From Candidatus Latescibacterota bacterium (GTDB lineage Bacteria > JAAXHH01), in assembly GCA_012270975.1 (NCBI GenBank), contig JAAXHH010000141.1, positions 186,335-250,334 on the forward strand: DNA of 64,000 bases, written 5' to 3'. Shown one piece after another: positions 37,582-49,134 of the stretch; within the stretch, counting starts at the first letter, position 1; each line of letters begins with the position of its first letter. Below the pieces are notes generated by a model, which saw nothing but the letters and a program-made list of their open reading frames with translations, did no database searches and was not told the DNA's origin. The position numbers and the translations under genes were made by a program.

Positions 37582-38541
37582 ATGACCCAAGCCAGGATCG
37601 CTTTCTTGTTTCCGGGGCAGGCTTCCCAGTACGTGGGCATGGGCCGGGACCTGCACGACCGGTATCCGCAGGTACGGGAGCTCTACCTGCAGGCCAGCGA
37701 GATCGCCGAGGCCGATATCACGGGGATCTCCTTCGACGGACCCGCCGAAACCCTGAAGCAGACGAACTACACGCAGTTGGCTATCCTTGTGCACAGCGTG
37801 GCGGTGGCGTCCCTGCTGAAGGAACAGGGGATCCAACCGGATTACGTCGCCGGCCACAGCGTGGGGGAATACTCGGCGCTGGTCGCGTCGGGATCACTCG
37901 CGTTCGAGGAATCGGTGCGCCTGGTTCGGCTGCGCGGCACCCTGATGCATGAGGCCGGACAAAGGCGGCCGGGCACCATGGCGGCCGTGATCGGCCTGTC
38001 ACCGGAGGAAGTCGACGACGTCTGCCGGTCGGCGAGCGGGGAGGGCGAGCCCGTCCAGCCGGCCAACTACAACTCCCCGGTACAGACGGTCATCGCCGGG
38101 GCCGTGCCTGCCGTGAAACGGGCTATGGAAGCCGCCCGGGATGCGGGGGCCAGGAGGGTCGTGCCCCTCGAGGTTAGCGGGGCGTTCCACTCCAAACTCA
38201 TGGAGCATGCCAAGCAAGGCCTTGCGGAGGCAATCGGAAAGGCCGCCATCACCCGCGCCGAAACGCCGCTGGTGGCCAATGTAACCGCCCGGTCCGTGAC
38301 GGAACCGGAAGATATCCGGCGCCTGCTGATCGAGCAGCTGACCCGGCCGGTGCGTTGGGCGGAATCCATGCAGACCCTGGCCGGCCACGGGGTGGGCACC
38401 GTGGTGGAGGCGGGACCGGGCAGCGTACTCGCGGGACTCATGAAAAGAATGCACCGCGGCGTCGGCGTCCTGAATGCGGATAAGCTCGAGGACGTGTCTT
38501 CCGTGGTCGAAGGGCTCGGTCAGCCCGTGGTGGAGCGGTGA
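37582..38541 (+). CDS. fabD: Malonyl-CoA:ACP acyltransferase
   Basis: Loads malonate onto acyl carrier protein for fatty-acid synthesis, 319 residues. The nucleophile is S93 in GHSVGEYSALVASG, the N-terminal loop is LFPGQASQYVGMG, and the catalytic histidine lies in SGAFHSKLM near 202. It starts with ATG 19 bp after rpmF, in the same operon. It may supply malonyl-ACP to FabF. The type I synthase farther down carries its own acyltransferase. Confidence 0.95.
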   Translation: MTQARIAFLFPGQASQYVGMGRDLHDRYPQVRELYLQASEIAEADITGISFDGPAETLKQTNYTQLAILVHSVAVASLLKEQGIQPDYVAGHSVGEYSALVASGSLAFEESVRLVRLRGTLMHEAGQRRPGTMAAVIGLSPEEVDDVCRSASGEGEPVQPANYNSPVQTVIAGAVPAVKRAMEAARDAGARRVVPLEVSGAFHSKLMEHAKQGLAEAIGKAAITRAETPLVANVTARSVTEPEDIRRLLIEQLTRPVRWAESMQTLAGHGVGTVVEAGPGSVLAGLMKRMHRGVGVLNADKLEDVSSVVEGLGQPVVER

Positions 38542-38655: not shown

Positions 38656-39399
38656 TTGCGTGGCTTGAACGGCAAAGTTGCCGTCATAACGGGCGGCGCC
38701 CAGGGGATCGGCTCCGCCGTCGCCGAACGGTTCGCCGCGGAAGGCGCCCGGGTAATCATTACGAGCCGCGACGGGACGAAGGCCGAAGAAGCCGCTGAGG
38801 CGTTGAAGCAAAAAGGGGGCGACGCGAGGGGGCTGTCCGCATGCATCGACGACCGGGACAGTGTGAAAGACCTGGTCGACGGCGTCGTTGAAGCATACGG
38901 ATCCATCGATGTTCTGGTCAACAACGCGGCCACGGTCCGGGACACGCTTTTGATGCGCATGAAACAGGCTGACTGGGACGAGGTCGTGCACATCAACCTG
39001 GGCGGCGTGTTTATCTGCACCCAGGCCGTCATACGGCCGATGATGCGGCAGCGGAGCGGCAGGATCATCAATATGACCTCGATCGTCGGCCTCTCGGGGA
39101 ACGTGGGACAGGCCAACTACGCCGCCTCCAAGGCCGGTATCGTCGGCTTCACCAAGTCCGTGGCGAAAGAGGTCGGCAGCAGGGGAATCACGGTCAACGC
39201 GATCGCCCCGGGGTATATCGAAACCGACATGACGGCGTCGCTTCCCGAGGCGGTGCGGACCGCGTTCCTGGACGCCACACCGCTTTCCCGGGCCGGACAA
39301 CCGGATGACGTGGCCGGAATCGCGGCGTTCCTGGCGTCCGACGACGCCGCCTTCATAACGGGCCAGGTGATGCGCGTCGACGGCGGCATGGGGATGTGA
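38656..39399 (+). CDS. fabG: 3-oxoacyl-ACP reductase
   Basis: NADPH-dependent short-chain dehydrogenase that reduces 3-oxoacyl-ACP in fatty-acid elongation, 247 residues. The cofactor motif is TGGAQGIG (12-19), and the catalytic residues are S142, Y155 and K159 (NMTSIVG and YAASKAG). The GITVNAIAPGYIETDMT loop is FabG-typical. The start is TTG at 38656. No ATG lies near it, and the family N-terminus LNGKVAVITGG is intact. It follows fabD after 114 bp. Confidence 0.93.
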   Translation: MRGLNGKVAVITGGAQGIGSAVAERFAAEGARVIITSRDGTKAEEAAEALKQKGGDARGLSACIDDRDSVKDLVDGVVEAYGSIDVLVNNAATVRDTLLMRMKQADWDEVVHINLGGVFICTQAVIRPMMRQRSGRIINMTSIVGLSGNVGQANYAASKAGIVGFTKSVAKEVGSRGITVNAIAPGYIETDMTASLPEAVRTAFLDATPLSRAGQPDDVAGIAAFLASDDAAFITGQVMRVDGGMGM

Positions 39400-39564: not shown

Positions 39565-39795
39565 ATGGAAGATCGCGTAAAGGAGATCATCGCCGAGCAG
39601 CTTGGCGTGGATGGTGACCAGGTTACCGACAATGCCTCGTTTACCGACGACCTGGGCGCCGACTCGCTCGACACGGTCGAGCTCGTCATGGCCCTCGAGG
39701 AAGAATTCGATCTCGAGATTCCCGACGAGGACGCCGAGAAGATCGTCACGGTAGGTGACGCGATCAAGTATCTCCAGGCCAATATAGACGGCTGA
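39565..39795 (+). CDS. acpP: Acyl carrier protein
   Basis: A 76-residue acidic carrier protein. The phosphopantetheine attachment serine is S34 in [31 protein letters not shown] and the IPDEDAEKI helix match standard FAS II ACPs. It has a strong AGGAGG upstream. It sits between fabG and fabF, and a GC-rich hairpin (39819-39838) separates it from fabF. Confidence 0.97.
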
Positions 39796-39838: not shown

Positions 39839-39867
39839 GCGGCCGGTTGATTTCGGGAGACTTCGGC

Positions 39868-41109
39868 GTGGCAGAGCGCGTTGTCGTTACCGGTATGGGC
39901 GTCCTGAGCCCCGTGGGTCTCACGCTTGATACCTACTGGAAAGCCCTTTGCGACGGCCAAAGCGGCGTTGGCCCCATAACCAAGTTCGATGTCGGCGACT
40001 TTCCGGCCAAAATCGCCGCCGAGTTGAAGGATTTCAATGCGGCGGACTATATCGACCGGAAGGAAGTGCGGCGCATGGACGACAACGTCCAGTACGCGGT
40101 AATCGCGGCGCAGATGGCGATCGATGACTCCGGGCTGGATCTCGATGCCGAGGACCGGGGACGCATCGGAGTGGTCATGGGCACGGGCGTCGGTGGGATC
40201 TGGACTTTCGAAAACCAGCACGCGAACCTGGTGAATAAGGGGCCGGGCCGGGTCAGCCCCTTTTTCATTCCGATGATGATCGCGGATATGGCGCCTGGCC
40301 AAATCTCGATGATTCATGGCCTGAAGGGTCCCAACTACACCACGGTATCTGCCTGTTCCAGCGGAGCGCACGGCATAGGCGACGCCTTCAGGATACTGCA
40401 GCACGGGGACGCGGACGTCATGGTCACCGGCGGGACGGAGGCCAGCATCTCCCCCATGGCCGTGGCCGGGTTCAGCAACATGCGGGCCCTTTCCCTCCGA
40501 AACGACGAACCTGAACGGGCCAGCCGGCCATTTGACGCCGAACGGGACGGATTCGTCCTGGGCGAGGGAGCAGGCATGGTCGTGCTCGAGACCCTGCCGC
40601 ACGCACTGCAGCGCAACGCGACGATTTATGCCGAACTGGCGGGTTATGCGGCGACGGCGGACGCTTTTCATATCACCCAGCCGCATGAATCGGGCGAAGG
40701 CGCGGTGCGGTCCATGAGCCTCGCACTGCGGAACGCCGGGTTGGCCGCAGACGAGATCGATTACATCAACGCTCACGGCACATCCACTCCCTTTAACGAC
40801 CGCATCGAAACCCTGGCGATCAAGAAGGTCTTTGGAAATCACGCGAAACGTCTCGCCATCAGCTCCACCAAGTCGCTTGTCGGCCATCTTCTCGGAGCTT
40901 CGGGAGGGGTGGAGTTCATCGCGACCTCGCTGTCCGTCTCCCGCGATTTCGTCCATCCTACCATCAACTACGAGGTACCCGATCCCGATTGCGACTTGGA
41001 CTACGTCCCCAACACCGGCAGGGAGCGGGAAGTACGGGCGGCCTTGACCAATTCATTTGGATTCGGTGGGCATAACGTAACTCTCGTGGTAAAGAAGTAC
41101 ACGGCGTAA
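39868..41109 (+). CDS. fabF: 3-oxoacyl-ACP synthase II
   Basis: Condensing enzyme of fatty-acid elongation, 413 residues. The catalytic triad is C163 (VSACSSGAHG), H303 (NAHGTSTPFND) and H340 (KSLVGHLLGA). The start is GTG at 39868 (MAERVVVTGMGVLSPVG), with GGGAG 9 nt upstream, which gives the standard 413 residues. A TTG at 39847 only adds a short non-conserved lead. No fabH-type initiating synthase is present in the window. It is followed by rnc after 39 bp, a widely conserved arrangement. Confidence 0.95.
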   Translation: MAERVVVTGMGVLSPVGLTLDTYWKALCDGQSGVGPITKFDVGDFPAKIAAELKDFNAADYIDRKEVRRMDDNVQYAVIAAQMAIDDSGLDLDAEDRGRIGVVMGTGVGGIWTFENQHANLVNKGPGRVSPFFIPMMIADMAPGQISMIHGLKGPNYTTVSACSSGAHGIGDAFRILQHGDADVMVTGGTEASISPMAVAGFSNMRALSLRNDEPERASRPFDAERDGFVLGEGAGMVVLETLPHALQRNATIYAELAGYAATADAFHITQPHESGEGAVRSMSLALRNAGLAADEIDYINAHGTSTPFNDRIETLAIKKVFGNHAKRLAISSTKSLVGHLLGASGGVEFIATSLSVSRDFVHPTINYEVPDPDCDLDYVPNTGREREVRAALTNSFGFGGHNVTLVVKKYTA

Positions 41110-41148: not shown

Positions 41149-41976
41149 GTGTCGAAACGGCATCCTATCCTGCAGAAGCTGGCGCGAGTAGCCGCGGCCC
41201 TTTTTTCCGGCCTGAAACGCGGCGTATCCGGCCATGCCGCGAACCGAACGGCCATCGAACGGGAAAACGCCCGCCAGGTACAAAAGTATCTCAACTACCG
41301 ATTCAAAAACCCCGACTATCTCATTACGGCGCTGAAGCACCGTTCCTACGTGTATTCCCGGGAACAGTCGGGCGTTCACTCCAATGAACGACTGGAGTTC
41401 CTCGGTGACGCGGTGCTGGACCTCGTCGTAGGCGAGTTCATCTTCAACAGGTATCCCCGGCGCCGCGAGGGACAGCTGACGCAGCTCCGTTCCACGCTGG
41501 TCAACCGGAAGGCCCTCGCGCGCCAGGCCCGGACGATGAAACTCGGTCGATACGTGCTGCTGAGCTCCAGCGAAGCCCGTTCCGGCGGCCGGTTTCGCCA
41601 TTCGATCCTTTCCGACGCCTACGAGTCCATCATCGGGGCCATGTACCTGGACGGCGGACTCGGTCCGGTCAGACGCTTCCTGTATCGCACCCTGCTCCAA
41701 GACTTGGGTGAAGAACGCCCCGCCAGCGTCGATCACTCCCGGAACTACAAGAGCGCGCTGCTTGAATTCACGCAGGGCGAGGGCATAGGCCAGCCGGAAT
41801 ACCGGGTTGATTCCGCCGTCGGCCCCGACCATGAGAAGATCTTTACCATCGAGGTCTATGTATCCGGGAATCCCGTGAGCAAGGGCACGGGCACCAGCAA
41901 GAAAAACGCCGAGCAGGACGCCGCGAGACAGGCCGTCGAGCAACTGCAGGCCGCCCGGAACAGCGAAGGGCCATGA
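41149..41976 (+). CDS. rnc: Ribonuclease III
   Basis: Double-strand-specific endoribonuclease of rRNA and mRNA processing, 275 residues. The signature NERLEFLGDAVL (79-90) and the second acidic site DAYESIIGAMYLD (about 163-175) are intact, and a dsRNA-binding domain covers about 198-270 (NYKSALLEF to KKNAEQDAARQAVEQL). A 40-residue basic N-terminal extension precedes the catalytic core and is unusual in length. The start is GTG. The gene overlaps the next one by 4 nt (ATGA). Confidence 0.95.
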   Translation: MSKRHPILQKLARVAAALFSGLKRGVSGHAANRTAIERENARQVQKYLNYRFKNPDYLITALKHRSYVYSREQSGVHSNERLEFLGDAVLDLVVGEFIFNRYPRRREGQLTQLRSTLVNRKALARQARTMKLGRYVLLSSSEARSGGRFRHSILSDAYESIIGAMYLDGGLGPVRRFLYRTLLQDLGEERPASVDHSRNYKSALLEFTQGEGIGQPEYRVDSAVGPDHEKIFTIEVYVSGNPVSKGTGTSKKNAEQDAARQAVEQLQAARNSEGP

Positions 41977-42800
41977 TCCGCATACTCGCCACGCCCGGAT
42001 GTTCCGCCGCCTGGAACATGGCTGTCGACGAAGCCCTGTTCGACGCGGGCGGGCGGGATCCGGAGATGATGACCCTGCGCATCTATTCCTGGACTCCTCC
42101 GGCCGTGTCTCTCGGATACGGCCAGGACGTGGAAGGCGAGATCGATCCCCGCCAGTGCGACCGGCACGGCATCGGATTGGTCCGGCGGATCACCGGGGGC
42201 CGCGCCGTGTTGCACGACCAGGAACTGACCTACAGCCTGGTGGCGCAGGAGTCCCACCCCGCCCTGGGCAGCTCGTCCGGCGTGATGATCCGCACGGTGA
42301 GCGAGGCGCTGATCGGGACGCTACGGCAATTCGGAATCCCGGCTGAAATTGCGCGGGACGGACGTTGCGGCATGGGTGGCAAAGGCGACGTATGTTTCAC
42401 GGCTACCGGACGAAACGAAGTCACGGTCCGCGGAAAGAAACTGGCCGGTAACGCCCAGCGCCGTTCGGGTGGACGGGTACTGCAGCACGGATCCATCCTG
42501 CTGGGACCTGGCCACAGAAAGCTTCCCCTGTTGATGCCTGGTCACGCTCGCGCACGCCGGGACGCCATCGCCCGGCTGCTGAACGAGCGGACCGTCTCCG
42601 TATCCGAGTTGATTCCCCGCGCTCCGTCCTTCGAGGAATGGACCGACTGCCTGTCCCGGTCGTTTCTTGAACAACTGAACCTGGAAGGTCGAATGGACGT
42701 ACTGGACGCTGACGAGCGGCGCATGGCCGAGTCGTTGGTCCGCACCCGATACGGAAGCGCCGACTGGACCTGGCGAAGGACGCTCTGCCATGTCGGATGA
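41973..42800 (+). CDS. Lipoate-protein ligase A family (LplA/LipM-like) protein
   Basis: A 275-residue protein of the biotin/lipoate ligase-transferase fold. It starts RILATPGCSAAWNMAVDEAL, with RRITGGRAVLHDQELTYSL (about 69-87) and the lysine K in VRGKKLAGNAQRR near 157. The short length and absence of an obvious C-terminal accessory domain favour an octanoyl- or lipoyl-transferase of the LipM/LipL kind over a full LplA. It overlaps rnc (ATGA) upstream and the polyketide synthase gene by 11 bp downstream, so the three are translationally linked. Confidence 0.85.
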   Translation: MIRILATPGCSAAWNMAVDEALFDAGGRDPEMMTLRIYSWTPPAVSLGYGQDVEGEIDPRQCDRHGIGLVRRITGGRAVLHDQELTYSLVAQESHPALGSSSGVMIRTVSEALIGTLRQFGIPAEIARDGRCGMGGKGDVCFTATGRNEVTVRGKKLAGNAQRRSGGRVLQHGSILLGPGHRKLPLLMPGHARARRDAIARLLNERTVSVSELIPRAPSFEEWTDCLSRSFLEQLNLEGRMDVLDADERRMAESLVRTRYGSADWTWRRTLCHVG

Positions 42801-45800
42801 ACCCGTTGCGATAACCGGAATCGCCTGCCGGTTCCCCGGGGGGATATCGACGCCCCAGTCCTTCTGGGAATTCATCCTGAACGGCGGAGACGCGATACGC
42901 GTCGTGCCGGACGAACGAAAAGCCCTGTGGAGTTACTGGCCGGACCGCGGGGAGTATCCAGACTGTGGCGGATTCGTCGACGAAATCGACCGGTTCGACG
43001 CGGGGTTCTTCAAAATATCGCCCCGGGAAGCCCGCCACATCGATCCCCAGCAGCGCATCCTGCTTGAACTCGCCTGGGAAGCGCTGGAAGACGCTCGGAT
43101 ACCCCCGGCCAAGCTGGAAGGCCGGTCCGTCGGAGTGTACGTGGGGATCTTCCTGGACGAATACTGGGATCTGCAGCGGTACGCGGCGCCTTCGTCGGTG
43201 GGCATGCATACCAACACGGGCGGCACGTTGAGCATCGCGGCCAACCGGATCTCCTACTTCCTCGATTTGCAGGGCCCGAGCATCGCCGTGGATACGGCCT
43301 GCTCCTCGTCCCTGACCGCCATACACCTGGCCTGCCGCGATATCCAGGCCGGAACCTGTACCGCGGCGCTTGCCGGAGGCGCCAATCTACTGCTGACGCC
43401 GCAGACGACGCGCGGGTTTCAACAGGCGCAGATGCTGTCGCCGGACGGGCGTTGCAGGGCCTTCGACCAGGGCGCGAACGGATACGGACGCAGCGACGGC
43501 GCCGGCATGGTCGTGCTGAAGCCCCTGGCCGCGGCGATGGAGGACGGCGATGCGATCTACGCGGTCGTTCACGGTTCCGCGATCAACCAGGACGGGCGCA
43601 GCAGGGGACTGACCGTACCGGGGCAAAGCGCGCAGGAAGCCGTCATCGAGTCGGCCGCCCGGGCAGGGGGCGTAAGCGCCTCTCGACTCGCTTTCGTGGA
43701 AGCCCATGGCACGGGAACGCCCACGGGCGATCCCATAGAAGCGATGGCCATTGGACGCGCCACGGGATCCACCGGCTGCCTGATCGGTTCGGTGAAGACC
43801 AATATCGGCCACACCGAGGCGGCGGCCGGAGTCGCCGGCGTCATCAAGACGGCGCTGTCGCTGAAACATGGGATCCTGCCGCCCTCTCTGCATTTCACGG
43901 ATCCGAATCCAGATATCCCCTTTGAAGAACTGGGGTTAAGGGTGGTCACCGAACCGGAGAACCTCCCCCGTCCCACCTATGCCGGTGTAAACTCCTTCGG
44001 ATTCGGCGGCGCCAACGCCCACGTCGTGCTCGGATCGCCGCCGGTCATGGAGCTCCACGAAGAACCTTCAAATACGCAACCGGCACGTGAACTGCAAACG
44101 ACAGAAACGGACGCTACCCGTCGCCAGCCGGTTCTGCAGGCTCCCCGGCTTCTGGTACTGTCCACCCACAGCACCGCCGCGCTGAAAGAAAAAGCATCGG
44201 ATACCGTATCCCTGCTTCGAAGCCATCCCGATACGCCGCCCGGCGATCTCGCTGCCGCGCTCGCCCTGCACCGATCCCATCTCGATCACCGTCTGGCGCT
44301 GTTGTTCGAGGAGTCCGGAGAAGCCGTCCGGGACCTCGAGGAGTTCTGCGGTGGCGGCATCCCGGATCGTTTCGAAACCGGACGCACCGGAGCACACGCG
44401 ACACCCGTCGTGTTTGTCTTCACCGGCATGGGCCCCCAATGGTACGGCATGGATCAGGCGCTTTACGACGAAGCGCCCCCGTTCCGCGAGGCGCTGGACG
44501 AGTTCGACCACCTGTTCGCGGCGATTTCGGGCAGGTCCTTGCTTGAAGTGATGCGGACCGGGACGACCGGTGAGCGCATGGCCGACGTCGCGGTCGCTCA
44601 GCCCGCCAACATGGCGCTGCAGTGGGCGCTGGCGGCCTTGTGGCGGTCCCTGGGCGTCGGGCCGCAGATCGTCGTCGGCCACAGCGTCGGGGAAATCGCA
44701 GGTGCCTGCGTCACGGGTGCAATTTCGCTGGAAGAGGGGGTTCGCATCATCTACCAGCGCAGCAGGCTACAGAAGGCTATGCAGGGAAGGGGTGAAATGC
44801 TGGCGGTGGGCGTGTCGCCCGAAGAGGCGGGAGAGCTCATCGAACCCTACGATGCCAGCCTGTCCATCGCCGCGGTCAACAGCCCGGCATCCGTGACCAT
44901 ATCGGGAGAAGCAGCGGATATCGACCGGTTGCAGGACGCGATCGAAGATCGACGGCTCTTCTGCCAGAAGCTGCATACAGAGATCGCCTATCACAGTGGG
45001 CAAATGGACGGGATCCGCGAGGATTTTCTGGCGTCCCTCAACGGATTGTCCCCCTCGAAAACCCGCGTACCGCTGTTGTCGACGGTGACGGGTGCGCAGG
45101 CAGACGGAACGGAACTCGACGCGGATCACTGGTGGCGGAATATCCGGAGTCCCGTCCTGTTCGACCGGATATTCGAAGAGGTTTCAGACGGCGGAGAAGC
45201 GCTTTACCTTCAGATCGGCCCCCATCCGGTGCTTTCCACGGCCATTTATGAGAATCTGGCTCAACACAACCAGCCGGGCCATGCACTCGCCACGCTGCGG
45301 CGCGATCGCGGAGCGTGGGACGTCCTGCTCGAATCCGTGGCAAAGTGCTACGTCCATGGACACGCTATCAACTGGGAGCGTCTGATGGACTCGCCTCGCG
45401 TGTCCGTGCAACTGCCGCCGTACCCCTGGCAGAAGGAACGGTACTGGCTGGATGGAATGGACCATCACCCGGGCGGCCTGTACCCGCACCCGTTGATCGG
45501 TCCGGCCGTTGAATCTTCCGTCGACCCCGATTCCCGGATATGGGAACGGGCGATCAGCCTGGAATCTCACCCGATCCTCGCGGACCACAAGGTGCTGGGC
45601 CGGTCGATCATGTCGCTTGCCGGGCAGATCGAAATGCTCTTCGAGACGCTCGACGCAGCGGATATTCCCGTCGCCTTCACCAGCCTCGAACTCCTGCACC
45701 CCCTGTTATTGCCCGAAATCGGTGCGCACCGCTTCCAGATCGTGCAAAGGCAGAACCGGTATACCCTGTCCTCCAAACCGGAATCTCAGGAGACGGCTTC

Positions 45801-48800
45801 GACCTGGCTGGCGATCATGCGAACCGAAAGATCCCGCGTGGATGAGATGGGCGAAATCATCGACCCGGGCGTTGTAAAATCCCGTTGCGACCAACGGATC
45901 ACAAGCCGTCGATTCTACGAACGCGCCACCGAATTGGGGTTTGCGTACGGCCCCGCCTTCCGCCAGGTCGACGATGTCGTGTATTCCGACCGGGAAGCGC
46001 TGGCCTTTCTGGTGTTCGGGGATGAAGGGCACGGGCCCTACCGCCTGCATCCCGGTGTCCTGGATGCCGGCCTGCAAGCCCTGCTGATGCTCGTACCGGA
46101 TGACGATCCACACTTGCCGGTTAGCGTGGAAACCATTGTGCTGCAGAGACTTCCAGGACAGCATGAAGTGCTGTTTGCCTATGCCAGACTGCGCGAGACG
46201 ACGAAAGAAGACAGCCTGCTGGCCGACGTGTACCTTGTAGACGAAAAGGGGCTGCCCACAGTGGCTTTGAAAGGCGTAGCCCTGTCACGGGCGAGCGGCT
46301 TGGGAAGCCGTCGCAGCCTCGACAACAACCCCCTCGGACTGTACCGCGAGGAGTGGGTGGCCGACAACCGCTGGGCGGACCGACCGCAACCCAGTTCGGC
46401 GTCCCACTGGTTCGTGCTCGCGGACGACCAACGACTCGGAGGCAAACTGGCCGACGCCCTGTCCCGCCCTGGTGTGAAGAGTGAATTCGTCGACCTATCC
46501 GGTAGTGGATCCGGAAAGAACTGGGACACACTTGCCGATAAACTGGGATTGGTGGAATGCGAGACCGGAAGCTACATCGGTTTGGCAGGTATTTGGACTG
46601 GAGGCGGCAACCGGAAGTCGGGCCGGCATACCGGACCCGCCCTGGAATCCTTTGAACTGGTCCGTACGGTGCTGGACAACCCGGATCTTCCATGCCGCCT
46701 GCGGCTGATCACGGCGGGTGCACAGCCCGTGATGGAGGGTGGCGGAGCATCACCATCACTCACGGCGATCTGGGGCTGCGGTCGGGTCGCCATGCGCGAA
46801 CATCCCGATTTGAACTGTACGCTGATCGACCTCCCGGCCGGGACCGGCGAGATCGATGTGGAGGGTCTTGCGGCGATCACGGGCACGGACTCATTACCTG
46901 GTGAAATTGCCCTGCGGGAAACCGATGTTTACACCCGCCGTCTCGTTCCCTTCGTTCCGAAGCGGAGCGAAGCGAAAACCGTAACCGCTTGTTCAAAAAC
47001 AAGTTACATACTATCGCAGCCCACACCAGGGTCAATCGACGACCTCCATTTCAAAACGAAACCGGAACCTTGCCCCGGACCAGACGAGGTGGTCATTCGC
47101 GTGCGGGCCGCCGCATTGAATTTCCGGGACGTGCTGACTGCCCTCGGCGTGTTGAAGGAACCATCACGGCGGCCACCGTCTTTCGGATGGGAATGCGTCG
47201 GTGAAGTGGTCGCACGCGGCGACAAGACAGACTCCGTGGAAATCGGCGATGTGGCTATGGGGATGGTGCCTGCGGCTCTGGCCGGACACGTCACCGCGAA
47301 GGCCGACCTGGTCGTCCGAAAACCCGAGCACCTGGGCATCGAGGAGGCCGTCACGCTGCCTGTGGCTTTTCTGACGGCATACCTGGGCCTCGTGGTACGC
47401 GGCGGGATATCCACCGGTGACCGGGTTCTTGTACATAACGCGTCCGGCGGAGTGGGACTGGCCGCCCTTCAAATCGCCTGTCAGGCGGGAGCTGAGGTGT
47501 TCGCCACGGCAGGGTCTGAAGAAAAACGCGCCTTACTGCGGGAAATGGGCGTTCCGCACGTGATGGATTCCCGATCGCTGGAATTCGCCGAAGAGATCAC
47601 GGAAAAGACTGCTGGGAAGGGCATGGATATCGTGCTAAACACCCTCTCCGGCCCCGCCATGAGGACTTCCCTGTCCGTGCTGGCACCCCATGGGCGTTTC
47701 ATCGAGATCGGAAAAACCGATGCGCTGAACCACGGTTCCATCGACCTCAACCGGTTCGACCAAAATCGGTCCTATCATCCCATTGATCTCGCGCAGTTCA
47801 TTGAGAAACGGCCGGACCGGGCAGGTGACTTGCTACAGAAGATCGTCGACATGGCCGGAGATGGCACGATACACCCCCTGCCGTATCAGGTCTTCCCGAT
47901 GAAACGGGCGCGGGAGGCCTTCCGGTTCATGTCGCAGGCCCGGCACACGGGCAAACTGGTACTCGTGGACGACGGAGCACCGGTTCCTGTGATCCTGAGC
48001 GGCGAAGATCCGATTATTCGATCGGGTGGAACCTACCTCGTCACGGGCGGCGCGGGCGGAATCGGCCGTTTCCTGACCGGCTGGCTGCTCGACCGGGGAG
48101 CCGGCCTGGTGGTCGTAACGGGCCGAAGGCCAATCGAGAAGGCGTCACCGGAAGCCGATCCCACCGGTAAAGTGAGGTATGTTCAGGCCGACGTGACCGA
48201 TCGGGAGATGATGGAACATCTCGTGGCGGATCTGAAATCGGAGCATGGGCCGGTCAGGGGCGTTTTTCACGCGGCTGGCGTGCTGGACGATGGTATATTG
48301 CTCACCCAGACGATGGAGCGGTTCCGTCAGGTACTCGAGCCCAAGACGACTGGCGCGTGGCTGCTGCACGAGTTAACGAAGGGCCTCGAATTGGACCTCT
48401 TTGTCCTGTTTTCCTCGGTGGCTTCTATGGTCGGCACCGCGGGCCAGGCGTCCTACGCCGCCGCAAACGCCTATCTCGACGGCCTGGCGGACCTCAGACG
48501 CCAAGAGGGTTTGCCAGTTACGACGATTAACTGGGGACCCTGGGAAGGTACGGGCATGGCGGCAGAAGAACTCACCGCCGATCGCCTCAAGCGGCAGGGA
48601 CTGCGCCCGATCCCGCCCGACGAAGCGGGCGCGCTGCTTGACCGGATATTGCGTCGTGACGTCCACCATGTCGGCGTGTTCCCTACGACGGAACCCACGG
48701 GAGAATCGCTGATCGCACGGTTCCTGTCTTCTGATAGTCATCCGGAACTGGTACCACAGTCGATCTTACCGCTATCGAGAGCGGACTTGTACGCTCTGTC

Positions 48801-49089
48801 CGCGAACGATCTCCGCGTCTACATCGAGGAATTCGTGACCGATGCGATCTGTCGGATCGTGGAAGTAGAACCGGGAAGCGTGGAACCGGGACAGACCTGG
48901 CGCAGCCTGGGAGTGGATTCTCTCATGGCCGTGGAATTGAGGAACCGAATCGAGGCGGGATTGCACGTGTCGGTTCCGGTAGAGACCTTGCAGTCGGAAA
49001 CCGCCATCAACCAGACGATCAACAGGTTGTTGGAGGGGTTTAAAAGCCACGAGTCGGACTCGAACCGACGACCTATTCATTACGAATGA
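42790..49089 (+). CDS. Single-module reducing type I polyketide synthase (KS-AT-DH-ER-KR-ACP)
   Basis: A 2,099-residue multidomain synthase. KS is at about 3-420: C171 in DTACSSSLTA, H306 in EAHGTGTPTGD and H341 in NIGHTEAAAG. AT is at about 535-850: S632 in GHSVGEIAG, and a later IAYHSGQM motif, closer to the malonyl-type HAFH than to YASH. DH is at about 885-1180: H927 in SHPILADHKVLG and D1092 in GVLDAGLQALL. A structural, non-catalytic KR half follows (about 1200-1400). ER is at about 1430-1740, with NASGGVGLAALQ at 1550-1561. KR is at about 1745-1960: TGGAGGIG at 1752-1759 and Y1889. ACP is at about 2010-2080, with S2044 in GVDSLMAVELR. There is no thioesterase. Size and order match mycocerosic-acid-synthase-like iterative enzymes. 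It is coupled to the lipoate-ligase gene. The last 14 codons (from 49045) are antisense to a tRNA. Confidence 0.95.
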   Translation: MSDEPVAITGIACRFPGGISTPQSFWEFILNGGDAIRVVPDERKALWSYWPDRGEYPDCGGFVDEIDRFDAGFFKISPREARHIDPQQRILLELAWEALEDARIPPAKLEGRSVGVYVGIFLDEYWDLQRYAAPSSVGMHTNTGGTLSIAANRISYFLDLQGPSIAVDTACSSSLTAIHLACRDIQAGTCTAALAGGANLLLTPQTTRGFQQAQMLSPDGRCRAFDQGANGYGRSDGAGMVVLKPLAAAMEDGDAIYAVVHGSAINQDGRSRGLTVPGQSAQEAVIESAARAGGVSASRLAFVEAHGTGTPTGDPIEAMAIGRATGSTGCLIGSVKTNIGHTEAAAGVAGVIKTALSLKHGILPPSLHFTDPNPDIPFEELGLRVVTEPENLPRPTYAGVNSFGFGGANAHVVLGSPPVMELHEEPSNTQPARELQTTETDATRRQPVLQAPRLLVLSTHSTAALKEKASDTVSLLRSHPDTPPGDLAAALALHRSHLDHRLALLFEESGEAVRDLEEFCGGGIPDRFETGRTGAHATPVVFVFTGMGPQWYGMDQALYDEAPPFREALDEFDHLFAAISGRSLLEVMRTGTTGERMADVAVAQPANMALQWALAALWRSLGVGPQIVVGHSVGEIAGACVTGAISLEEGVRIIYQRSRLQKAMQGRGEMLAVGVSPEEAGELIEPYDASLSIAAVNSPASVTISGEAADIDRLQDAIEDRRLFCQKLHTEIAYHSGQMDGIREDFLASLNGLSPSKTRVPLLSTVTGAQADGTELDADHWWRNIRSPVLFDRIFEEVSDGGEALYLQIGPHPVLSTAIYENLAQHNQPGHALATLRRDRGAWDVLLESVAKCYVHGHAINWERLMDSPRVSVQLPPYPWQKERYWLDGMDHHPGGLYPHPLIGPAVESSVDPDSRIWERAISLESHPILADHKVLGRSIMSLAGQIEMLFETLDAADIPVAFTSLELLHPLLLPEIGAHRFQIVQRQNRYTLSSKPESQETASTWLAIMRTERSRVDEMGEIIDPGVVKSRCDQRITSRRFYERATELGFAYGPAFRQVDDVVYSDREALAFLVFGDEGHGPYRLHPGVLDAGLQALLMLVPDDDPHLPVSVETIVLQRLPGQHEVLFAYARLRETTKEDSLLADVYLVDEKGLPTVALKGVALSRASGLGSRRSLDNNPLGLYREEWVADNRWADRPQPSSASHWFVLADDQRLGGKLADALSRPGVKSEFVDLSGSGSGKNWDTLADKLGLVECETGSYIGLAGIWTGGGNRKSGRHTGPALESFELVRTVLDNPDLPCRLRLITAGAQPVMEGGGASPSLTAIWGCGRVAMREHPDLNCTLIDLPAGTGEIDVEGLAAITGTDSLPGEIALRETDVYTRRLVPFVPKRSEAKTVTACSKTSYILSQPTPGSIDDLHFKTKPEPCPGPDEVVIRVRAAALNFRDVLTALGVLKEPSRRPPSFGWECVGEVVARGDKTDSVEIGDVAMGMVPAALAGHVTAKADLVVRKPEHLGIEEAVTLPVAFLTAYLGLVVRGGISTGDRVLVHNASGGVGLAALQIACQAGAEVFATAGSEEKRALLREMGVPHVMDSRSLEFAEEITEKTAGKGMDIVLNTLSGPAMRTSLSVLAPHGRFIEIGKTDALNHGSIDLNRFDQNRSYHPIDLAQFIEKRPDRAGDLLQKIVDMAGDGTIHPLPYQVFPMKRAREAFRFMSQARHTGKLVLVDDGAPVPVILSGEDPIIRSGGTYLVTGGAGGIGRFLTGWLLDRGAGLVVVTGRRPIEKASPEADPTGKVRYVQADVTDREMMEHLVADLKSEHGPVRGVFHAAGVLDDGILLTQTMERFRQVLEPKTTGAWLLHELTKGLELDLFVLFSSVASMVGTAGQASYAAANAYLDGLADLRRQEGLPVTTINWGPWEGTGMAAEELTADRLKRQGLRPIPPDEAGALLDRILRRDVHHVGVFPTTEPTGESLIARFLSSDSHPELVPQSILPLSRADLYALSANDLRVYIEEFVTDAICRIVEVEPGSVEPGQTWRSLGVDSLMAVELRNRIEAGLHVSVPVETLQSETAINQTINRLLEGFKSHESDSNRRPIHYE

Positions 49090-49117
49090 ATTGCTCTACC
49101 AACTGAGCTATCGTGGC
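49045..49117 (-). tRNA. tRNA-Thr (anticodon CGU)
   Basis: A complete 73-nt cloverleaf on the minus strand. The acceptor is GCCACGA with TCGTGGC, the D arm is GCTC/GAGC, the anticodon stem is ATTCA/TGAAT around TTCGTAA (anticodon at 49082-49084), and the T arm is GTCGG/CCGAC with TTCGAGT. There is no encoded CCA. It overlaps the last 45 bp of the polyketide synthase gene on the opposite strand. Its own promoter is at 49135-49163. Confidence 0.96.
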
Positions 49118-49134
49118 CTGTTAAATCCGCGCTC

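Follow-up and report, generated by a model that had tools for sequence, protein, structure and literature searches.

Several described systems resemble parts of the locus analysed here. According to the available part of its description, SwfA (sponge symbiont widespread PKS/FAS) has a KS domain with HATGT and with a DPQQR motif whose second Q is replaced by I or V, and it is accompanied by SwfB; the same source gives an AT motif rule used to predict the extender substrate (PMC3908369). SupA (sponge symbiont ubiquitous PKS) is a small single-module PKS for which a fatty-acid product was proposed (PMC4245539). T1PKS clusters have been reported from Latescibacterota MAGs (PMC12993501), and swf-like clusters from Latescibacterota among other phyla (PMC9426513).

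With regard to the second protein of the locus, LipM takes octanoyl groups from ACP (PMC7253636, PMC6067878), and the nucleophilic Cys residues of LipB and LipM sit on different loops (PMC7253636). The presence of LipB and LipM together in one bacterium was described as very rare (PMC10332631), while lipoate ligases are marked by the motif RRXTGGG (PMC3904984). No description of a LipM-PKS pair was found in a partial coverage of the literature by titles and the beginnings of abstracts.

Gene order, domain structure and the partner protein

The window (the whole analysed stretch of DNA, 64,000 nucleotides long) belongs to a 4.06-Mb draft genome of Candidatus Latescibacterota with a completeness of 98.3% and a contamination of 5.7%. 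It contains a fatty-acid operon with the gene order yceD, fabD, fabG, acpP, fabF, rnc, a lipoate-ligase-like gene (hereafter, the partner) and, as the last gene, a single-module type I polyketide synthase (PKS). On the plus strand, NCBIfam models with scores above their cut-offs identified fabD (malonyl-CoA:ACP transacylase, 37582–38541; TIGR00128, 325.5 bits), fabG (3-oxoacyl-ACP reductase, 38656–39399; TIGR01830, 324.3 bits), fabF (3-oxoacyl-ACP synthase II, 39847–41109; TIGR03150, 629.8 bits) and rnc (ribonuclease III, 41149–41976; TIGR02191, 237.9 bits). The acpP gene (acyl carrier protein of 76 aa, 39565–39795, plus strand) was recognised by a stretch of ten residues in its reading frame. 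The partner (41973–42800) and the PKS (42790–49089) follow on the same strand, and the start of the PKS overlaps the stop of the partner by 11 bp (42790–42800). Downstream of the PKS are a tRNA-Thr(CGT), an amidohydrolase-family gene on the opposite strand and a dehydrogenase. The tRNA (49044–49118, minus strand; ARAGORN; Rfam RF00005, 73.3 bits) is antisense to the 3′ end of the PKS gene, overlaps it by 46 bp and encloses its stop codon.

The PKS open reading frame starts with ATG and encodes 2,099 aa with no internal stop. The Pfam search revealed KS (residues 4–369, 42799–43896; PF00109 294 bits, PF02801 127 bits), AT with malonyl-type motifs (residues 541–849, 44410–45336; PF00698 231 bits), DH (residues 900–1171, 45487–46302; PF21089 46 bits, PF14765 91 bits), ER (residues about 1430–1725, 47077–47964; PF08240, PF00107 and PF13602), KR (residues 1747–1919, 48028–48546; PF08659 199 bits) and ACP (residues 2015–2072, 48832–49005; PF00550 41 bits), all on the plus strand. 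The motifs read directly were DTACSSS, EAHGTGT and NIGHTEA in KS, GHSVGE in AT, DH...DAGLQ in DH, NFRDV and HNASGGVG in ER, Ser-Tyr-Asn with LDD in KR and GVDSL in ACP. The DH motif HxxxGxxxxP is off-consensus in the window's PKS (H..G....S); the Gly place is occupied by D or N in most orthologues, with both the His and the downstream Asp conserved. No thioesterase domain was present among the 18 Pfam families matched, and neither a methyltransferase nor a loading domain appeared in the Pfam domain list. None of the neighbouring genes examined encodes a PPTase; the only match in this genome is located on another contig, and its best model is of the HetI/Sfp type, with a score below that model's cut-off. 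The original prediction of a KS-AT-DH-ER-KR-ACP synthase with visible catalytic motifs, placed behind acpP, fabF, rnc and the partner with an 11-bp overlap and accompanied by neither a thioesterase nor a PPTase, was borne out in these respects, the DH motif being partly off-consensus.

The partner is a single-domain protein of 275 aa; the catalytic family, Pfam PF21948 (128 bits), was its only match, and the accessory domain of the ligases is absent. The NCBIfam ligase models scored far below their cut-offs (92.8 against 480 bits and 90 against 280 bits), and the counterpart of the RRXTGGG ligase motif ends in GGR. A Cys (in CF) and a Lys (in G(K/R)K) are invariant in the alignment of all 16 orthologues, and we take this Cys to be the LipM nucleophile. 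The partner reads better as a single-domain LipM-type acyltransferase than as the lipoate ligase originally named for this gene. A second member of the lipoate-ligase superfamily was found in 13 of the 16 genomes compared below and in none of G006, G014 and G015. In the window's genome, it is LipB by model (the alignment check covered G000, G001 and G013), which makes the partner spare for lipoate there; in the three genomes with no second member found, the partner may be the lipoate transferase.

Conservation and evolution of the locus

The comparison set consisted of 16 genomes of the phylum-level group (G000, the window's genome, to G015), 14 of which belong to one family. A strong PKS match was present in all of them, and in 15 the operon PKS orthologue lies directly 3′ of the partner gene. 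The rnc gene precedes the partner in 14 of these 15, G014 being not judgeable. The whole block from fabD to PKS was seen in 12 genomes, including the window's; in G002, G006 and G014, the contig ends before the block is covered, and in G006, G009 and G012 the PKS gene runs off its contig. The partner/PKS overlap is exactly 11 bp in all 14 genomes of the family, at PKS identities down to 42%. The aligned PKS start of G014 is no start codon, and an ATG six codons upstream would, if used, give an overlap of 14 bp. In a tree of 38 sequences, the 15 operon KS domains were monophyletic with a support of 98, the nearest KS outside this clade being the other PKS of G015. The PKS gene has one origin in the lineage. 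This common origin, together with the exactly kept overlap and the constant position, speaks for a function of the partner-PKS pair. The rnc-partner-PKS order, on whose conservation the predicted lipid role had been made to depend, is therefore kept in related genomes and is not unique to this contig.

The strong match of G015 is a different PKS. In this genome, the partner lies 3′ of rnc, and no PKS start is present in the remaining 253 bp of the contig, which indicates that the partner can do without the PKS and may have been recruited. The PKS on contig C46 of G015 was rejected as an operon copy, as its upstream gene is unrelated and its KS falls outside the operon clade.

One scan of named genomes, which reaches close relatives, returned 21 PKS loci. 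The closer ones (seven at 70–78% identity and two at 46% and 38%) belong to records whose titles name Candidatus Latescibacterota, Gemmatimonadetes or an uncultured bacterium. The remaining twelve are distant (31–51% identity), and no partner-like gene was found at any of them, one locus being only 3.4 kb long. The plasmid tblastn search gave only matches below 60% identity and no named close type. We take the SB0665, APA and IRC bins to be of sponge origin and ERR599008 and SI072 to come from open water; if this is right, the PKS gene is not restricted to sponge symbionts. Ten genomes of the same genus (G002–G005 and G007–G012; e.g., G005:C2:73917) carry a second PKS, whose frame is about 3,500 aa long; G006 has fragments of it, and it was not found in G000 at E 1e-100.

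The dN/dS of the PKS was 0.27, 0.31 and 0.27 in three genome pairs and that of rnc 0.09, 0.12 and 0.06 in the same pairs, while one pair gave 0.07 for fabF and 0.20 for fabD. The PKS ratio is 2.6–4.4 times that of rnc or fabF and 1.3 times that of fabD. The two usable pairs for the partner gave 0.26 and 0.23; the value of 0.54 for G008–G006 was set aside because dS was only 0.019. Within the genus, KS (r 0.86) and partner (r 0.94) distances followed those of the fab/rnc genes, and the AT, DH, ER and KR distances did not track them (r 0.26–0.33). The PKS tree has five of nine splits in common with the fab/rnc tree and the partner tree four of nine, some splits being weak; the PKS tree groups G007 with G008 at full support, contrary to a split that also has full support in the fab/rnc tree. 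Sliding windows placed the switch of signal at about residues 350–550, which corresponds to the KS end and the KS-AT linker. Judging from these patterns, the region 3′ of the KS appears to have been exchanged between species by recombination, perhaps as far as the tRNA. Such recombination argues for diversification of the product and against a fixed housekeeping product, and together with the dN/dS values it makes the PKS unlike a fixed housekeeping enzyme.

The tRNA-Thr adjoins the PKS end or is close to it in all 12 genomes examined. The two overlap by 46 bp in five of them (the window's, G003, G004, G009 and G010) and by 20 bp in G002; there is no overlap in the remaining six, where the PKS stops short of the tRNA. 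An old insertion at the 3′ end of the tRNA may have left the overlap as its scar. Of the 12 genomes examined, only G007, G008 and G012 carry an ion-channel gene (PF00520 in G007) between the PKS and the tRNA-Thr (L003 16582–17337; L005 up to 14930; L184 1926–2720), a distribution that was also counted towards the recombination reading.

Possible functions of the pair

Our tentative reading is that the partner and the PKS form a two-protein unit in which acyl chains are moved between AcpP and the synthase, giving a saturated envelope acyl chain. The partner and the single-module, fully reducing and probably iterative synthase would be a coupled pair that closes the fatty-acid operon and acts as one unit. 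The partner would form an acyl-Cys intermediate and pass acyl groups between the type II AcpP and the synthase. Most likely, AcpP-bound chains would be loaded onto the synthase; since LipM is known to draw on octanoyl-ACP, this direction is favoured over release. The synthase would extend the chains with malonyl units and reduce them fully; the resulting acyl chain would be linear and saturated and would go into an envelope lipid shared by the lineage. The two proteins would be translated in a coupled manner and be physical partners, and transfer direction, iteration, product and chain release are likewise what we infer for them.

The anatomy of the synthase, the conserved locus, the exact overlap, the invariant Cys and Lys, the LipB of the window's genome and the malonyl-type AT motif are observed features. 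The pair model is favoured by the locus with its overlap, the monophyly of the operon KS domains, the single-domain partner with its invariant residues, the AT motifs, the use of octanoyl-ACP by LipM, and the second superfamily member in 13 of 16 genomes (LipB by model in the window's genome), seen against the rarity of LipB and LipM in one bacterium. The PKS having neither a loading domain nor a thioesterase is also counted for it, as are the twelve distant PKS loci with no partner-like gene. What is counted against it is, in part, the same evidence that favours a second explanation, possible although rather unlikely, in which the partner is an ordinary lipoate octanoyltransferase merely placed on a shared transcript. 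The PKS would then be independent and self-priming, would have come between the partner and the tRNA-Thr, and would make a lineage-specific lipid or a small metabolite. The partner of G015 with no PKS behind it, the three genomes (G006, G014 and G015) in which the search for another superfamily member found none, and the fast evolution of the PKS with its apparent recombination behind the KS all weigh in this direction, and so does the tRNA-Thr, which was seen at the PKS end or close to it in each of the 12 genomes. However, an ordinary lipoate enzyme on a shared transcript does not sit well with an overlap that measures 11 bp in every one of the 14 family genomes, at PKS identities down to 42%, nor with the LipB that the window's genome has besides the partner. 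A further point against the pair model is that the role of the Cys as the LipM nucleophile is presumed. Moreover, in the lipoate-ligase superfamily, sequence alone is insufficient to assign function, according to the available part of PMC7253636.

With respect to the predicted lipid role, the conserved neighbourhood, the overlap and the single origin fit it better than a sporadic secondary metabolite, and this part of the original prediction is retained; the branched product suggested with it is not.

Replacement of FabH by the pair is unlikely. In this proposal, the synthase would make a short or medium saturated primer, the partner would transfer it to AcpP and FabF would extend it. True FabH was found only in G015 (392.7 bits, cut-off 292.1), the genome with no PKS behind the partner, and not in any of the 15 that carry the operon PKS, while 11 of 14 control genomes were positive. 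The weak FabH matches in G001 and G013 (two in G013), like the weaker of two in G015, were rejected as type III PKS-like. However, the contrast between G015 and the other genomes represents one evolutionary event at most, and G006 and G014 are less than 90% complete. FabF can also initiate from acetyl-ACP after malonyl-ACP decarboxylation, as described in the available part of PMC8666670. Likewise, a divergent 538-aa ketoacyl synthase of G000 with Cys-His-His and a long N-terminal part (contig C106, L195 447–2063) may initiate chains and substitute for FabH. That a type I to type II relay took over initiation, so that FabH could be lost in a lineage also with no PlsX or PlsY found, is given little credence.

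The ketoacyl-synthase matches of G000 were the PKS, FabF, the 538-aa protein and two weak ones, and weak matches similar in size to the 538-aa protein occur in nine of the 16 genomes. PlsX and PlsY were each found in none of the 16, with eight of the 14 controls positive. Apart from FabH, type II fatty-acid synthesis seems complete. The FabA/FabZ family is present in 13 of the 16 genomes, in G000 as an LpxC-FabZ fusion by model, and PPTase matches were found once in 14 genomes and twice each in G014 and G015. With E. coli FabI as the query, all matches listed were weak and SDR-like (the best of them 62 bits and 32%), and the FabK model gave none over its cut-off, which raised the suspicion that the enoyl reductase of the PKS was the sole one. 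This was refuted by FabV, which is present in 14 of the 16 genomes, in G000 as an equivalog by model, in a search with none of the 14 control genomes positive and hence no positive control among them. The PKS is not the only enoyl reductase available to type II synthesis.

If the two proteins do act as a unit, a type I synthase with no thioesterase would be supplied or unloaded in a new manner, by a LipM-type acyltransferase, and an uncultured lineage would employ an antibiotic-type multidomain synthase in its core lipid metabolism. In that case, part of the T1PKS annotations in Latescibacterota genomes might represent lipid genes instead of drug leads.

Relation to known synthases and acyltransferases

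The AT motifs GHSVGE and AYHS are present in 14 of the 15 operon copies, with GHSTGE and AFHS in G013. They point to malonyl-CoA specificity in all 15, a prediction from motif evidence only, made with the rule in the available part of PMC3908369. The malonyl-type motifs in turn predict a linear product. Against solved structures, the KS scored 421 bits with CurL, 398 with PikA1, 387 with GfsA, 383 with Pks13, 374 with DEBS and 354 with MAS (mycocerosic acid synthase), and the top row, 7zma with 619 bits, sums two stretches. For the AT, too, modular cis-AT enzymes scored above MAS, the ranking of both domains being a proxy and not a tree. By this ranking, the KS does lie near modular synthases, a placement that the original prediction had regarded as speaking against a conserved lipid role; with a neighbourhood that is not unique to this contig, the outcome of that check is divided. 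That the enzyme is MAS-like and forms methyl-branched fatty acids from methylmalonyl-CoA is very improbable: MAS is the best full-length solved relative (899.6 bits, residues 5–2060) and the nearest one of the DH-ER-KR half (393 bits), but the AT motifs are malonyl-type in 15 of 15 copies, the domain list holds no methyltransferase, modular enzymes outscore MAS for both KS and AT, and the NCBIfam Pks2 model, whose cut-off is 2,400 bits, reached only 1,089.

Compared with MAS and MAS-like PKSs, the operon PKS has the same KS-AT-DH-ER-KR-ACP order in a single-module chain, a similar length, no thioesterase and the closest reducing half. It differs in its malonyl-type AT motifs, which do not predict methylmalonyl specificity, in a KS and AT nearer to modular enzymes, in the LipM-type partner and in its place in a fab operon. 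The resemblance to MAS proposed earlier holds for size and domain order; a MAS-type branched product is not supported.

With SwfA, it shares the domain order, the malonyl-type AT motif and the single module, as far as the available description goes (PMC3908369). Unlike SwfA, 14 of the 15 operon copies have DPQQR and HGTGT, with DPQHR and HGPGT in G014, and no SwfB-like (reductase-sulphotransferase) gene lies downstream of the PKS in the window. SupA, compared by its description only, is similar as a small single-module PKS with a proposed fatty-acid product (PMC4245539). The partner is like the LipM octanoyltransferase in its single domain, superfamily, size and conserved Cys, according to the available parts of the sources (PMC7253636, PMC6067878, PMC10332631). 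It differs in that its gene overlaps a PKS gene and the window's genome also has LipB.

In mycobacteria, FAS-I and FAS-II form a relay in which a multidomain synthase acts on the same chain as a type II set, with FabH as the link between them. The present locus likewise joins a multidomain synthase with a type II set, but the domain order of FAS-I is different, and here, where FabH was not found, the LipM-type protein is the candidate link.
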